A stretch of DNA of 21,167 nucleotides from a virus, in the IMG/VR virus record IMGVR_UViG_3300011115_000321, positions 1-21,167 of that record; one strand, written 5' to 3'. Shown here in pieces: positions 9,170-21,167 of the stretch. The notes beneath the pieces are model-generated. The model worked only from the letters and a program-made list of their open reading frames with translations. It ran no database searches and had not been told where the DNA came from. Each line of letters opens with the position of its first letter. Position 1 is the stretch's first letter. The translations under genes and the position numbers were made by a program.

Positions 9170-9813
9170 GTTGATACAAATTGCTGATTTTCTGGATACC
9201 GATTTGCCTCTAAAGCAATGTAGTCAGATAGCATGGATCGGAACAATGTGTATGCCTCTGATGAAGACAATCCACCATCTTCACCACGCTCAACCAATGC
9301 CCTGGCATAAGCACCTTGAGCAACAACTACATCAGGCACAAGAACAACAGTGCTGTCAGATGCCAAAGTTGCCTGGGGTATTGTTAGACTGAATTTCAAT
9401 GTGTATACGCCATCAGGAATTGGGAACAAACTGACTTTGGTGTTGTAAGAGCCATCTATGCCATCAAAGGTAAATTCTGTAGGAATTGAGTTGACCAAGG
9501 GCAAAAAGTTCTGTTTGCGGTTCATGTCCACAAATGTGATGTTAGTCAAACCAACATTACTGGTTGTGTTGATGGCATCCATCACCTGAAACTTTTGACC
9601 AGCACCAGTGAGTGAATATGATGGGGTTGAAGCCACAGTAGTCACAGTGATGGTCTGCCCCAAAGAATTCCAACCAAAAGAATCTTCTACTTGACGTTTT
9701 GCATCGTTTACAAACTTTGCAACCAAAGTGGAATAGGTGGTTTCGTTGTAAGTGGTTACAACAGGCTCACGCAAGCGGATCAACACATCGTTGACAAGTT
9801 CTAGTAGTGTCAT
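9166..9813 (-). CDS. Head-to-tail adaptor protein (tail tubular protein A-like)
   Basis: This 215-aa protein probably forms the adaptor ring between portal and nozzle. The N-terminal helices (MTLLELVNDVLIRLREP, then LVAKFVNDAKRQVEDSFGW at about 30-48) match the pattern of phage adaptors of the gp11 (T7), gp4 (P22) and SU10-adaptor kind. In that pattern a first helix is followed by a loop and a helix ending in an aromatic W. A beta-rich middle (about 50-150) carries FLPLVNSIPTEF. A C-terminal helical pair (AQGAYARALVERGEDGG, then SEAYTLFRSMLSDYIALE) closes it. It shares ATGA junctions with both neighbours and lies directly before the nozzle gene. The call rests on helix pattern and gene order. 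Confidence 0.7.
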   Translation of the reverse strand: MTLLELVNDVLIRLREPVVTTYNETTYSTLVAKFVNDAKRQVEDSFGWNSLGQTITVTTVASTPSYSLTGAGQKFQVMDAINTTSNVGLTNITFVDMNRKQNFLPLVNSIPTEFTFDGIDGSYNTKVSLFPIPDGVYTLKFSLTIPQATLASDSTVVLVPDVVVAQGAYARALVERGEDGGLSSSEAYTLFRSMLSDYIALEANRYPENQQFVST

Positions 9814-10145
9814 GCTCTTGCCAACCCTTCTTGTTCAAATGTGGCTATAAAACTGAATGTGCTTCCTGCCTGAGTAGTTATTTTTATCTTGTCATCTTCT
9901 TCTAAAACAATGTAGGCATTGCCATCAAACTGCAAATATTGTTTTGATGTGAAATCGTAACTAGTCAATATATCAAGTGTTGTACTAGCGCTTGCATCAA
10001 ACCACTGAACAGTTATATGCTTGGTAGACTCACCTGTATTGTGTATATACATTACAGTGAATTTGGCGTAATAGCCCTTTGGACAGGTATAGACTGTTGT
10101 GTCTACTGCCGCTGTAGGACTAAAACCAACTGATAATGCTCTCAT
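9810..10145 (-). CDS. Small beta-rich protein, probable minor structural protein
   Basis: This 111-aa protein is beta-strand rich (VYTCPKGYYAKFTVMYIHN, ITVQWFDAS, FDGNAYIVLEEDDKIKITT). The pattern is that of a small jelly-roll or beta-sandwich, as seen in phage head-fibre, decoration or tail-attachment proteins. I do not recognise a specific family. It has no signal peptide or membrane segment. It is locked between a basic small protein gene and the adaptor gene by ATGA overlaps on both sides, so it is expressed with the tail genes. A virion role is likely from position only. Confidence 0.6.
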   Translation of the reverse strand: MRALSVGFSPTAAVDTTVYTCPKGYYAKFTVMYIHNTGESTKHITVQWFDASASTTLDILTSYDFTSKQYLQFDGNAYIVLEEDDKIKITTQAGSTFSFIATFEQEGLARA

Positions 10146-16958: not shown

Positions 16959-19019
16959 TTAAGTCAATTCCCTAGAAAGACGATTGAGAAACTCATCTTC
17001 AACGCTCGACATTTTGCCCTTCTTGTCTGCCATTTGCAACTCGACAATCTTGGACTTGTTCTTAATGTCAGCTTCTTTCAGCATCAATTCAGCAATCTTA
17101 ACCCGCTTGTCGAACTCTTTTGAACCAGCATCATCTTGGTTTGGCAGGTTCTTGGTCATTGCCGCCATGTTCTTGGCTTGCACTTCTTGGGGCATCAACT
17201 GTGCCTCAATCGACAACTTCTGTGCTTCTGCCCGATTCTGTTCAGCTTGAGTCGTATTAACAGCAATCTGAGCCTGTGCAGCTTGCATAGCCAACTGCTG
17301 TTGCATTTGTTGCATTTGCTCTGCTTGCGGGTTAGGTTGGCTCATCTTGTCCAACTGTTCCATCAGTTCATAGCGGTTGGTCAATGAAGAATTAGCCAAA
17401 ACACCCTTCAGAATCAGTGGCAACACAGGGGTGTTAGGGCCAAGGGTCTGGAGCAAGCCAATGAACATCTGTTGCTCATGCTCACGGGCAATGATGCCAA
17501 GGGTGGCAGTAGGAATGAAGGTCATGTCCACAGAAGGGTAACGCTCTGGGTCAAACTGCATATACCTGAAAGCCGCCTTCTGGATGAAGGGAATCAGGAA
17601 GTCTTCTTGGAAGTTCACTAGAGTACGCTTGTACTTCTTGATGATGGTGGCAACTGCCATAGACATACCGCCTTGGCCCATGTCTCTAGCACCAGCACTG
17701 ACCATGCCTTGAGAATCCAAAGTTCCCGTGGATTGCAGGAGCATACGCTCAAAATCCTTGGCAGTTGCTAGGTTGTTGCCATCAGTCTGCCCAAACTTGA
17801 AGGGATACAGAATCTCTGAAGGTGCGCCATTGGTAAGAATGGCTTTCCCAGGCTTGACTTCAAACTTAGCCCCACGGGGCAGACGGGTTGCATCCATTGC
17901 AATCATGGGGCTGGTGGTCAGCGCCAATGAATCCAAGTGAGAACGAATCTGAGCATCAATAGCCTTTTGCATATTGAAGGCTTTTTCCACTGTGCCACGC
18001 CCAAGCAGACGATTGGGAACAGTGTCATCTTGGTAGGTCAGAACAGGGCGATCCTTCATCATGTAAGGATTTGCCTCTGCTTTGAGCAACTGCCCATCGT
18101 TGGCAATTACGACAATGGCCTCAACCATGTCTGAATATTCTTCAGCAGCGGAACTCTCAGGGAACAAGTCAACAATGTTCTTGTTTTCTTCAAGGTTCTC
18201 AAGATACTCACGGGGAACCAGACCATAGTAAGTCAGCAACAATACCTTTTCATCCTGGTACTGGCTTACCTCTTGGGTGGGTTCTAGGTCAGTGTCTTCA
18301 TAGGTGGGCGTAATGTCTACTTTGCGATAGATGCCACGCTCAATGCCTTCAACAATCTTATGAATAGAAATGTATTTCTCAATTGCCACCCCCATACAGT
18401 CATCAACTGAGGTTCCATTGGGGTCGAAAAGGAAGTTTTTTGGATTAACAGGGGAAATCTTGACTGAAATCCTGTCTTTTTCCACTACGCCAATGGCGGC
18501 TTGTCCCATTTGCCCAGGAATTGCCTGAGTAGAGGGTACAAACTGCTTTTCAGTCTTAACGACAATCTCGCCAATGCCTGTTCCATAAATCTCTGCCATC
18601 AACTCAATGGCATCAATGGATTTACGAATCTTGTCCCGCTTGAAATCCTCCATCAACTGGGCTTTTAGGACTCCAACATCAATGGGGTTGTTGTTCACAT
18701 CCCGAATATCATCTTGAATGTCAAAGAACTCGCCTTGACCAAAGATGGCTTCCATGATCTCAGCATGGCGAGTCTCTACAGCTTGTTGGGTGGCAGGGGT
18801 TACGATGCGTGAACGCTCAGACTCACGGGTCTTGTCTTCAGATGCCCACTGTCCACGAAAGATTCGCTCGTATTCAAGCCAATCTGGGAGGAAGTTGGTA
18901 TCTCTGTAGTCACGCCAGCGGTTGCAATGGTCAGTAACAAAATCAGTCAGTTCTTTATCAGCCTCAGTAGGCTCATAAAACTCATTTTGCTCTAGCTTTT
19001 CTTGCTTATCTGTTGCCAT
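16959..19019 (-). CDS. Portal protein
   Basis: The portal forms the twelve-subunit ring at the head vertex through which DNA enters. I start it at the ATG at 19019, giving 686 aa beginning MATDKQEKLEQNEF, because it forms a TAATG overlap with the terminase stop and has CGGGGGTT upstream; an earlier in-frame ATG at 19052 lies inside the terminase gene. The N-terminal part carries WRDYRDTNFLPDWLEYERIF and SRIVTPATQQAVETRHAEIM (about 70-95), typical of portals of short-tailed phages. Other blocks are NPKNFLFDPN and AGARDMGQGGMSMAVATIIK. The C-terminus is a long Gln/Ala-rich helix (about 560-640, QMQQMQQQLAMQAAQAQ), comparable to the portal barrel of P22. Length fits a P22-type portal. It follows the large terminase and its stop directly abuts the fibre ATG. 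Confidence 0.9.
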   Translation of the reverse strand: MATDKQEKLEQNEFYEPTEADKELTDFVTDHCNRWRDYRDTNFLPDWLEYERIFRGQWASEDKTRESERSRIVTPATQQAVETRHAEIMEAIFGQGEFFDIQDDIRDVNNNPIDVGVLKAQLMEDFKRDKIRKSIDAIELMAEIYGTGIGEIVVKTEKQFVPSTQAIPGQMGQAAIGVVEKDRISVKISPVNPKNFLFDPNGTSVDDCMGVAIEKYISIHKIVEGIERGIYRKVDITPTYEDTDLEPTQEVSQYQDEKVLLLTYYGLVPREYLENLEENKNIVDLFPESSAAEEYSDMVEAIVVIANDGQLLKAEANPYMMKDRPVLTYQDDTVPNRLLGRGTVEKAFNMQKAIDAQIRSHLDSLALTTSPMIAMDATRLPRGAKFEVKPGKAILTNGAPSEILYPFKFGQTDGNNLATAKDFERMLLQSTGTLDSQGMVSAGARDMGQGGMSMAVATIIKKYKRTLVNFQEDFLIPFIQKAAFRYMQFDPERYPSVDMTFIPTATLGIIAREHEQQMFIGLLQTLGPNTPVLPLILKGVLANSSLTNRYELMEQLDKMSQPNPQAEQMQQMQQQLAMQAAQAQIAVNTTQAEQNRAEAQKLSIEAQLMPQEVQAKNMAAMTKNLPNQDDAGSKEFDKRVKIAELMLKEADIKNKSKIVELQMADKKGKMSSVEDEFLNRLSRELT

Positions 19020-20278
19020 TAAACCCCCGATATGATGTCTACAGGCTCCCACTCTTCATCTTCTTCGGCCTCAAAGTAAGATGTTACAGCCAATTGATCG
19101 ATATAACTCAAAGCATCGGGCAAGTCATCATGTACGCCATTGGCAGGAAACATCAAGAGTTGATCGGTGAATTCATCCCAATCTTCTTCAGAGTTCAGCA
19201 CAATTCGCCCATGCTCAAACCGCCCTTGGAGACTCCAGATGATTCTGTCTGTCTTTTTCCTGTTGCCATGCGTTAGGTCAACTATGTGCGAATATACATT
19301 ATTTTTCCGCATCAGGTCACTGAGGTAGGGCAAAACAGCGTTTTTAAGTGCCCCACGCTCGATTCCAACCGAAATTGGCCTGTAATCCCGCATCTTCATC
19401 AGGATTTTGGCAGCAGTTTCCCGAATGTCCCACCGCCCATGGTCAATCTCTTTGACAAACCACTTGCCATCATCAGTGACTTTGACCACTGCAATGGCAC
19501 TCTCATCTAGTCTTTTTTTCGCGTTAGCAGCTTGTTTAGCCACTTCTTCAAATCCTGCCAAGTCGATTGCAATGAAGTAACTACCATACTCAGGTTCCAC
19601 ACCATATTTGATCCAATCTTCTTTAAAAACATCGCTTCCTGCGTTGTCAAAGGACGCTAGATATTCCTGCTTGAAAGCAAAGGATGACAGCGTTTTCTTG
19701 GCAGACTCAATCTCAGTTGGGTCTATCAATGGGTTGTCTTGGGTTGTGAAGTGCCAAGACTTCCAATCAGGATCAGTCTCCTCTTGGCCCATCTTGAACA
19801 GATCATAGAACCAGTTTCGCCCCTTGGGAGTGCCGATGAATATGGCTCTGCCCTTTTTGTCTGACAAAGAAGCCCTGATAACCTGCTCCCAGGCTTCAGG
19901 CTTAATGTCCGCAACCTCGTCTAGCACCGCATAGGTCAGGGACACACCCCGCAGGGTATCTGGTCTATCAGCACCACGAACATAAATCTTTGCACCATTT
20001 ATCATGGTGATATCCATATTGTTGATGTGACTGTTTTGGATAACATCCCGTCCAATCTCTAACAGCACATCCCAAATGATCTGTCTTGCCTGACCATTGG
20101 TGGGCGCAACATAGAGAACTGCACTTCCTGCTGGGCAACGCAATGCTTCAATAATTAGCGTAGTAGCCGCTAACCTAGACTTACCACAACGCCGACCAGC
20201 AGCCACAACCTTAAACCTTGTTTTGTCAGCAAAGACTGTTTGTTGCCAAGGCAGGAGTGAGAAGTTGAGGTCAGACAT
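19019..20278 (-). CDS. terL: Terminase large subunit
   Basis: This 419-aa protein is the packaging motor and headful or end-cutting nuclease. The ATPase part has Walker A AGRRCGKS (residues 27-34) and Walker B YAVLDE (116-121, D120 E121), with the coupling motif FIGTPKG at 147-153. The RNase H-like nuclease part starts with FIAIDLAG, where D239 is the first metal ligand, and ends with HDDLPDALSY (383-392), which carries the last acidic pair. The C-terminal tail is very acidic (EAEEDEEWE). The start overlaps the small-subunit candidate by eight bases (ATGTCTGA); it lacks a strong ribosome site and probably depends on coupling. The portal starts at its stop. All expected motifs are present. Confidence 0.95.
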   Translation of the reverse strand: MSDLNFSLLPWQQTVFADKTRFKVVAAGRRCGKSRLAATTLIIEALRCPAGSAVLYVAPTNGQARQIIWDVLLEIGRDVIQNSHINNMDITMINGAKIYVRGADRPDTLRGVSLTYAVLDEVADIKPEAWEQVIRASLSDKKGRAIFIGTPKGRNWFYDLFKMGQEETDPDWKSWHFTTQDNPLIDPTEIESAKKTLSSFAFKQEYLASFDNAGSDVFKEDWIKYGVEPEYGSYFIAIDLAGFEEVAKQAANAKKRLDESAIAVVKVTDDGKWFVKEIDHGRWDIRETAAKILMKMRDYRPISVGIERGALKNAVLPYLSDLMRKNNVYSHIVDLTHGNRKKTDRIIWSLQGRFEHGRIVLNSEEDWDEFTDQLLMFPANGVHDDLPDALSYIDQLAVTSYFEAEEDEEWEPVDIISGV

Positions 20279-20663
20279 TTTTTGTTTCTACATCAGTCAC
20301 ATCTTGCAAGGGTTCAATCTCTACGCCACCAATGCCTGTGATGTTGATGGTAACGGCATTCCTTTGCTTGCCTTCTTTCTCAAACAATGACACAGGCAAC
20401 ATCCGATCCATACAGAGTTTGAGCATAGCCGCCTGTGCTGGGTGTTCATCATTCATGGCAATCTCAATTGCTTTGTGAACGACATTGGAACCTGCACTGT
20501 TTATCAGGAGGTCTTTGAGTTCTTTGATGCGCTGAACTTCAGTCTTTGGCAGGAGAGCCGCAGGTCTTTCAGCATAGGTAGACATAGTGAACTTCTTGTT
20601 CACAGCACCTTTGGGGCGACCCTTTTTCTTTAGGTTGTTTGGCAGTGCATCAATCACATTCAT
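20271..20663 (-). CDS. Probable terminase small subunit (first gene of operon)
   Basis: This 130-aa protein is the likely DNA-recognition subunit of packaging. It sits directly upstream of the large terminase and overlaps it by eight bases. The N-terminus is basic and has KKKGRPKGAVNKK (12-24), an AT-hook-like GRPKG core. The centre is helical (RIKELKDLLINSAGSNVVHK, then AIEIAMNDEHPAQAAMLKLC) and ends MDRMLPVSLFEKEGKQRN. A C-terminal strand region (NAVTINITGIGGVEI) follows. There is no clear helix-turn-helix of the classical type. The call rests on position and composition. It is preceded by a sigma70-like promoter, with only a weak ribosome site (GGGTAAAGT before the ATG). Confidence 0.6.
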   Translation of the reverse strand: MNVIDALPNNLKKKGRPKGAVNKKFTMSTYAERPAALLPKTEVQRIKELKDLLINSAGSNVVHKAIEIAMNDEHPAQAAMLKLCMDRMLPVSLFEKEGKQRNAVTINITGIGGVEIEPLQDVTDVETKNV

Positions 20664-20691: not shown

Positions 20692-20720
20692 ACTATACAT
20701 TGTTTGACAAGTGGGGTAAA
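20692..20720 (-). promoter_or_regulatory. Candidate sigma70-like promoter for the late operon
   Basis: Reading the minus strand, TTTACC (20720-20715), a 17-base spacer and TATAGT (20697-20692) fit a sigma70-type promoter (4 of 6 and 5 of 6 bases). The predicted RNA start lies about 20 bases before the ATG at 20663, giving a short leader. The -35 box is within GGGTTTACCC, an inverted repeat that could bind a regulator. A single match of this quality is common by chance. Confidence 0.45.
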
Positions 20721-20732
20721 CCCTAGTACATT
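20704..20732 (+). promoter_or_regulatory. Candidate divergent sigma70-like promoter
   Basis: On the plus strand a perfect -35 TTGACA (20704-20709) is followed after 17 bases by TACATT (20727-20732, 4 of 6). It overlaps the opposite promoter completely. It points away from all genes of the window and would read through the leader into sequence to the right of 21167. Confidence 0.4.
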
Positions 20733-20794
20733 CTTCACGGGGCCATCACCCAGCCCTCTATGCGGTGGAACCGACCAATTAGGATAATCGTAGC

Positions 20795-20808
20795 GAGTCA
20801 GGCGACTC
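20795..20808. repeat. Inverted repeat GAGTC-AGGC-GACTC
   Basis: Perfect five-base arms around a four-base loop in the leader region. Could be a small hairpin or a protein site; no link to a gene is visible. Confidence 0.5.
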
Positions 20809-20891
20809 TTAAGTAGCCCCCCATCATTCGGGATGAATCATGGCAAGGTGAACAGGAAATGTAGTCTGAGCCACTTGTCTGACAAACAAGA

Positions 20892-20908
20892 TACTGGTTA
20901 GCTTAGAT
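20892..20908. repeat. Diverged single copy of the array motif
   Basis: TACTGGTTAGCTTAGAT matches the middle array copy (TACTGGCTAACTTAGAT, 21123-21139) at 15 of 17 bases. The offset of 231 bases is not a multiple of 26, so it is separate from the array. Confidence 0.5.
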
Positions 20909-20922
20909 AAACAAGAGGTTCA

Positions 20923-20936
20923 CTTCTGAAAAGAAG
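20923..20936 (+). repeat. Hairpin with GAAA tetraloop
   Basis: CTTCT-GAAA-AGAAG: perfect five-pair stem closed by a GNRA-type tetraloop when read on the plus strand. Supports the possibility that plus-strand RNA is made here, without showing it. Confidence 0.45.
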
Positions 20937-20946
20937 ACTAACCCTC

Positions 20947-20985
20947 ACGGGTGCCTGAACTCGTCTATACCCTACCACCACCCGT
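20947..20985. repeat. Seven-base inverted repeat with overlapping local hairpin
   Basis: ACGGGTG (20947-20953) pairs with CACCCGT (20979-20985) across a 25-base loop. A local stem ACCC-TCAC-GGGT (20941-20952) uses some of the same bases, so the two structures exclude each other. Confidence 0.45.
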
Positions 20986-21091
20986 CTGTAGCACCTTCTT
21001 CCTTCCCAACAAAAGGCTAATTTGGCTTTTCTTGTGGATAGGAGGCACCACAAAATCTCTCACACCACGACCACCCCCTCCCCCCTACGAA

Positions 21092-21164
21092 GTAAGCACA
21101 CACTAACTAAAGGCTAAGTAAGTACTGGCTAACTTAGATGTTAGTGAGTACACGCTAACTTATA
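21092..21164. repeat. Iteron-like direct repeat array, 26-bp period
   Basis: Three copies of a 19-21-base motif start at 21092, 21118 and 21144, exactly 26 bases apart: GTAAGCACACACTAACTAA, GTAAGTACTGGCTAACTTA and GTGAGTACACGCTAACTTA. Shared core: GT-R-AG-Y-AC, two or three variable bases, then CTAACT. The next copy would start at 21170, beyond the window, so the array may be longer. Spacing near two and a half helical turns and repeated half-sites suggest binding of a phage protein. Confidence 0.7.
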
Positions 21165-21167
21165 AGT

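Follow-up and report, generated by a model that had tools for sequence, protein, structure and literature searches.

A row of sites resembling SlmA docking sites lies 5' of the terminase genes of a freshwater phage, and similar rows recur across phages

The array at the right-hand edge of the window (the whole stretch of DNA analyzed here, a 21,167-bp virus fragment of a freshwater phage with its structural genes on the minus strand) looks like a row of sites resembling the docking sites of SlmA. SlmA is the bacterial nucleoid occlusion factor, a protein of TetR fold that keeps cells from dividing across their chromosome. Judging from sequence comparisons, the array is probably bound by a host protein, and we consider it reasonably likely that this protein is the host-encoded SlmA or an ortholog, whereas any single function for the array is held with less confidence than the identity of its binder.

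A repeat search of the window returned three diverged 18-nt copies (78%–83% alike) at 21091, 21117, and 21143, separated by steps of 26 and 26 bp, as had been claimed in the original prediction of three copies at exact 26-bp steps. The lag-26 autocorrelation of the array stretch (0.71) was the highest among 7030 sampled 77-nt stretches of the window (lags 10–39 scanned), and was matched by 0 of 20,000 shuffles. Read on the minus strand, the array unit is an imperfect 20-bp palindrome (GTTAGYNNGTRCTYACTNAC, centre GTAC), and exact copies of this type were found at this locus only. The array comprises the following sites, scored against the consensus for E. coli SlmA binding sites (SBS):

21140..21159, minus-strand reading GTTAGCGTGTACTCACTAAC: SBS-like copy 1, 8/10 palindromic pairs, 14/20 to the E. 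coli SBS consensus
21144–21163: site overlapping SBS-like copy 1, 14/20 to the SBS consensus
21114..21133, minus-strand reading GTTAGCCAGTACTTACTTAG: SBS-like copy 2, 13/20 to the SBS consensus
21118–21137, CTAAGTTAGCCAGTACTTAC: site overlapping SBS-like copy 2, 14/20 to the SBS consensus
21088..21107, minus-strand reading GTTAGTGTGTGCTTACTTCG: SBS-like copy 3, 14/20 to the SBS consensus
21160..21167: array running off the window edge, with the next copy in locus L010

The published E. coli consensus is GTAAGTGAGCGCTCACTTAC (for example, SBS17 is GTTAGTGACCATTTACTTAC and SBS12 is CGAAGTGAACGCTAACTCAC; PMC4423959), with a 12-bp core, GTGAGTACTCAC (PMC3116907), that is present exactly in locus L113. 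Phage units score 13–16/20 against this consensus, and SBS12 and SBS17, both genuine E. coli sites, reach 15/20 each. In the window, four sites reach at least 14/20, compared with 0.51 expected, and all four lie within the 76-bp array; in the overlapping contig G001 there are seven such sites compared with 0.31 expected, six of them inside the array. The phage sites share with E. coli SBSs a 20-bp palindrome, the half-site GTNAGTNA, the range of consensus scores, and a centre that is mostly YR, as in GCGC. Unlike E. coli SBSs, which are distributed across the chromosome with the exception of Ter, the phage sites are packed as 2–10 copies in one intergenic spot. The degeneracy of the window's own copies speaks against the SlmA reading.

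The array had also been described as cut by the window end, and it does continue past that edge in L010, a locus in contig G001 (IMGVR_UViG_3300011115_000633) that is 100% identical to the array end of the window over 504 bp. The suggested look for further copies to the right yielded a fourth copy, GTTAGTAGGTACTCACTTAC, exactly 26 bp further on (L010 9479–9498, 15/20 to the SBS consensus), and beyond it more copies that are out of register; an outer copy, CTTAGTTAGCACTCACTTAC, scores 16/20. A SprT-like gene lies past the L010 array, with transcription directed away from the terminase side. The 26-bp step is held in relatives with the window-type array, even in L083, whose inter-copy DNA differs, the exceptions being L076, where a step measures 22 bp, and L059, L062, and L025, which contain a 30-bp insertion.

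Tandem SBS-type pairs with free spacing were found in at least 120 IMG/VR contigs, compared with 3 for a reversed-motif control, and the strict tandem pattern at 26 bp was found in 55 contigs, where we estimate a chance expectation of about 0.02 (assuming about 4e10 bases). The 157 loci grouped into 41 nucleotide clusters with 131 distinct arrays, clusters being defined by alignments of at least 800 nt at 70% identity or more, such that some may be kin at the protein level (as the window-family TerLs are). Positions 9 and 10 of the site, which the search pattern left unconstrained, were G in 153/170 and Y in 161/170 sites, respectively, both in agreement with the E. coli consensus. Sites scoring at least 16/20 were concentrated near arrays (44 within 700 bp, versus 3 elsewhere in 382 kb). 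The recurrence of arrays in unrelated phages lends support to the earlier proposal of selection for protein binding, and the presence of similar rows at the same place in many phages suggests that phages exploit a host protein through them.

Exact 26-bp spacing was rejected as a general rule. The step belongs to the phage family of the window, and copies keep it in near relatives with the same array type but not in other phages, in which the spacing of distinct arrays is mostly 28–29, 37–39, or 46–50 bp. These peaks outside the window family may reflect helical phasing. A very long SlmA-type array is found in L247 (a 73.7-kb contig), where positions 9399–9938 contain 12 tandem-pattern matches in about 540 bp. 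Among isolated phages, no DNA relatives were found for the window region or for three other array phages; L170 has a distant isolated relative, DSL-LC05, with a predicted gammaproteobacterial host, which is without the array. A host search among genome contigs gave one 57% TerL match, in a marine Acidimicrobiaceae MAG, which was not informative for the host.

The position of the arrays relative to the terminase genes is consistent. In the window, these genes are as follows:

19019..20278, minus strand: large terminase subunit (TerL; phrog_2, Terminase_6N)
20271..20663, minus strand: putative small terminase subunit (TerS), 130 aa, GRPKG-type, assigned by position

Neither PHROG nor Pfam gave a match for the putative TerS itself. 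Of the 41 clusters, 21 have a recognizable terminase close by, and the array lies 5' of it in each of them (21/21). L245, where the array directly follows a terminase-small-subunit-like ORF, may be an exception. TerL was the gene most widely shared near arrays (20 clusters), and seven clusters are related to the window's own TerL or TerS (L173, L178, L195, L221, L225, L240, and L244). On the side away from the terminase, the array is often flanked by GP88 (PF17338) or DUF7227 genes (L178, L173, L275, and others).

Relatives with 95%–100% identical TerS carry one of two array types between the same boundaries. Type A, that of the window, was present in 8 of 45 distinct upstream sequences, and type B, a repeated AGGGTTTACCCT, in 37 of 45. 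Tandem GGGTTTACCC pairs (type B) occurred in 89 contigs, from which 80 loci were read and grouped into 26 clusters (by eye, a few matches, L320 and L323, are perhaps in coding repeats). Several type B clusters adjoin the TerL of lineages that also bear SlmA-type arrays: L301 adjoins the TerL lineage of L179, L305 and L354 that of L170, L302 and L324 that of the window, and L344 that of L175. Because type B sits beside the TerL of the same lineages as SlmA-type arrays, the two types look, at the sequence level, like alternatives at one functional place. Most near relatives have the AGGGTTTACCCT array; hence, the function is not strictly dependent on SlmA-type sites, which counts against the SlmA reading. 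A literature search on the type B motif returned no relevant paper.

We searched for a phage-encoded binder in two ways. No TetR_N domain was detected in 30 array-family contigs (up to 169 kb, some incomplete), most of which carry a SlmA-type array, with the rest from the window's own family and including three type B relatives. Likewise, across 37 ORFs, TerS and TerL among them, no residue column distinguished type A from type B, and no early or packaging gene was found to covary with array type. The binder is thus probably host encoded, given that there was neither a TetR-type phage protein nor a phage residue tracking array type, and the lack of any gene or residue separating type A from type B argues against TerS, a phage initiator, or a phage immunity repressor in this role.

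These results bear on three explanations in which the phage supplies its own binder. Tandem sites at regular steps that are bound by the TerS or Rep of the element itself are familiar from lambda cosB, pac sites, and plasmid iterons, and the location beside the terminase resembles that of lambda cosB. The consistent 5' position (21/21 decidable lineages) and the invariant G-rich block directly adjoining the array would suit a cosB- or pac-like packaging site bound by the phage TerS, with the G-rich block as the cleavage site. However, no TerS or TerL residue tracks array type (8 type A versus 36 type B contigs), and the same 20-bp palindrome accompanies unrelated TerS and TerL. Many contigs also read through the array site, although replicating DNA can also assemble this way; the window and G001 overlap at their opposite ends too (99 bp, 100% identity) and so close a circular map of about 34.2 kb, and the relative G006 likewise spans the full circle. 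The packaging site of the original prediction, read by the phage terminase, is therefore disfavored and in our view improbable. A replication origin with iterons bound by a phage initiator, which had also been put forward, would account for the regular direct repeats present in the window array, the nearby inverted repeats, and the gene-free stretch between divergent modules. What speaks against it is the location elsewhere, about 5 kb away, of the sole initiator-like gene (a DnaD-like candidate identified by eye in L113), which is present with both array types; no initiator tested tracks array type, and the palindrome is common to unrelated phages. We judge this origin quite improbable. A further possibility is an operator or stoperator array of a phage immunity repressor, in which types A and B would mark two immunity classes; it is suggested by phages that are otherwise nearly identical but carry either of two interchangeable operator types at this locus. 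Nonetheless, no early-module gene or residue tested tracks the type, there is no TetR-like gene, and the palindrome is common to dozens of unrelated phages, making this the most improbable of the explanations. Unlike cosB, pac sites, and iterons, the phage arrays show no covariation with the phage proteins examined.

The region between the array and TerS contains the following features:

20692..20720, minus strand: sigma-70-like promoter TTTACC-17-TATAGT, toward TerS, its -35 overlapping the AGGGTTTACCCC box
20704..20732, plus strand: sigma-70-like promoter TTGACA-17-TACATT, toward the array (from L010, 9960–9932)
20713..20724: AGGGTTTACCCC box, in nearly all relatives checked; the same as the unit of the type B array
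20735..21010, plus strand: candidate structured non-coding RNA, about 280 nt
21011..21033, plus strand: AAAAGGCTAATTTGGCTTTTCTT, possible intrinsic terminator of the candidate RNA, at its end; hairpin in several relatives
21035..21089: conserved G-rich block, in nearly all relatives whatever the array type

The description of this region as gene-free stands for protein genes, but not if the candidate structured RNA lying between array and TerS is counted. The strand of the candidate was deduced from its promoter and terminator. Relatives contain at least three divergent versions of the candidate (homologous stretches L020, L023, and L064), among which the motifs CACGGGG, GCGGTNGANCCGACCAA, ATAAACNAGAGG, and GTCTGTAG are kept and hairpin stems change together. 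Rfam and ARAGORN searches of the region gave nothing at curated thresholds, and a terminator scan did not pick up AAAAGGCTAATTTGGCTTTTCTT, the hairpin being weak in the window copy. Single-sequence folding of the candidate was no more stable than that of shuffles (z 0.06), and its support hence comes from the covarying hairpins seen by eye.

The conserved block contains a G-run, GGGGGGAGGGGG, on the TerS-sense strand (window 21074–21085), and GGGGAGGG, a putative KOPS match; on the other strand the block is C-rich, like a Rho site. A G/C-run of the GGGGGGAGGGGG kind lies beside the array in about a third of array clusters, and can be likened to mitochondrial CSBII, a KOPS motif or, on the other strand, a Rho site. 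Other variation was observed in this region among relatives. A second putative RNA, absent from the window, lies upstream of TerS in L016, L025, L026, L060, L062, L064, and L076, with the layout GTTGTTGCC...ACGCATGGRGATT-variable-CYCCAGCCGTGTTGG-variable-CCAACAACC and hypervariable loops, one of which contains a tRNA-like piece in L016. Longer versions of the region (L036, L050, L065, and L028; L015 and L068) contain an ORF in the opposite orientation to TerS, which is HNH-type by motif in L050. Within the fixed boundaries GGTGCTTA and GGGGGGAGGGG, the 180 bp upstream of the G-block in window-family relatives form a mosaic in which short palindromic cassettes are swapped (TTATGC..GCATAA, CCGACCGGTCGG, and AGGGTTTACCCT).

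The two divergent sigma-70-like promoters share the AGGGTTTACCCC box, and this arrangement is relevant to the remaining alternative, in which the array is the operator of a different host transcription factor, one that recognizes a SlmA-like palindrome, regulates the divergent terminase and early promoters, and has no connection with division. The intergenic, divergent position adjoining these promoters, the AGGGTTTACCC box overlapping both promoters at the TerS start, and the alternative array at the same place, implying a role that several binders can fill, are all consistent with such a factor. The 20-bp site, however, fits the SBS consensus even at positions that the search left free, and we regard this alternative as unlikely, if still worth weighing. 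The regulator operator of the original prediction survives in part, as an operator whose binder is probably not the phage's own and is most likely host SlmA.

Binding by host SlmA has precedents in two known systems. The tandem-SBS plasmids pHC534 and p2SBSK, which cause a SlmA division block (PMC3573117), resemble the phage genomes in bearing several SlmA-type sites on a multicopy replicon; unlike these laboratory constructs, the phage arrays are natural, and all come from metagenomic contigs. At the SlmA-activated chb promoter of Vibrio cholerae (PMC5519180), an SBS upstream of a promoter is used for gene control, although there a single site serves a host promoter, in contrast to the tandem sites in phages.

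With SlmA as the binder, the array would serve as a SlmA binding row in the divergent control region 5' of the terminase operon, on which the SlmA of the infected cell would load cooperatively. Its most likely action would be in cis, on the promoters that flank it, toward the terminase and late genes on one side and the early genes on the other; SlmA can activate transcription, as in Vibrio cholerae (PMC5519180). A placement strictly 5' of the terminase is easier to reconcile with cis action than with a decoy that does nothing but block division, and we favor local control of divergent promoters or of packaging start as the primary role. In trans, multiplying genomes may present many SlmA-bound arrays, whereby FtsZ would be inhibited and division would stop while the phage replicates. 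In E. coli, a multicopy plasmid needs no more than two tandem SBSs to bring about a SlmA-dependent division block that is lethal (PMC3573117); hence, phage genomes with 3–10 sites should act alike, provided SlmA is present and binds.

SlmA sites have so far been known from chromosomes and laboratory plasmids, and our literature search returned no paper linking them to phage genomes. More tentatively, the arrays that many freshwater phages carry at this conserved place could make use of SlmA as a ready-made nucleoprotein switch, by which phage DNA, with no phage protein involved, halts host division and makes packaging-gene expression depend on SlmA, with types A and B as interchangeable answers to one task. 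If SlmA binds these arrays, phages would be able to act on the division machinery of the host without a protein of their own, and there would be a testable role for a widespread class of non-coding phage DNA 5' of the terminase.
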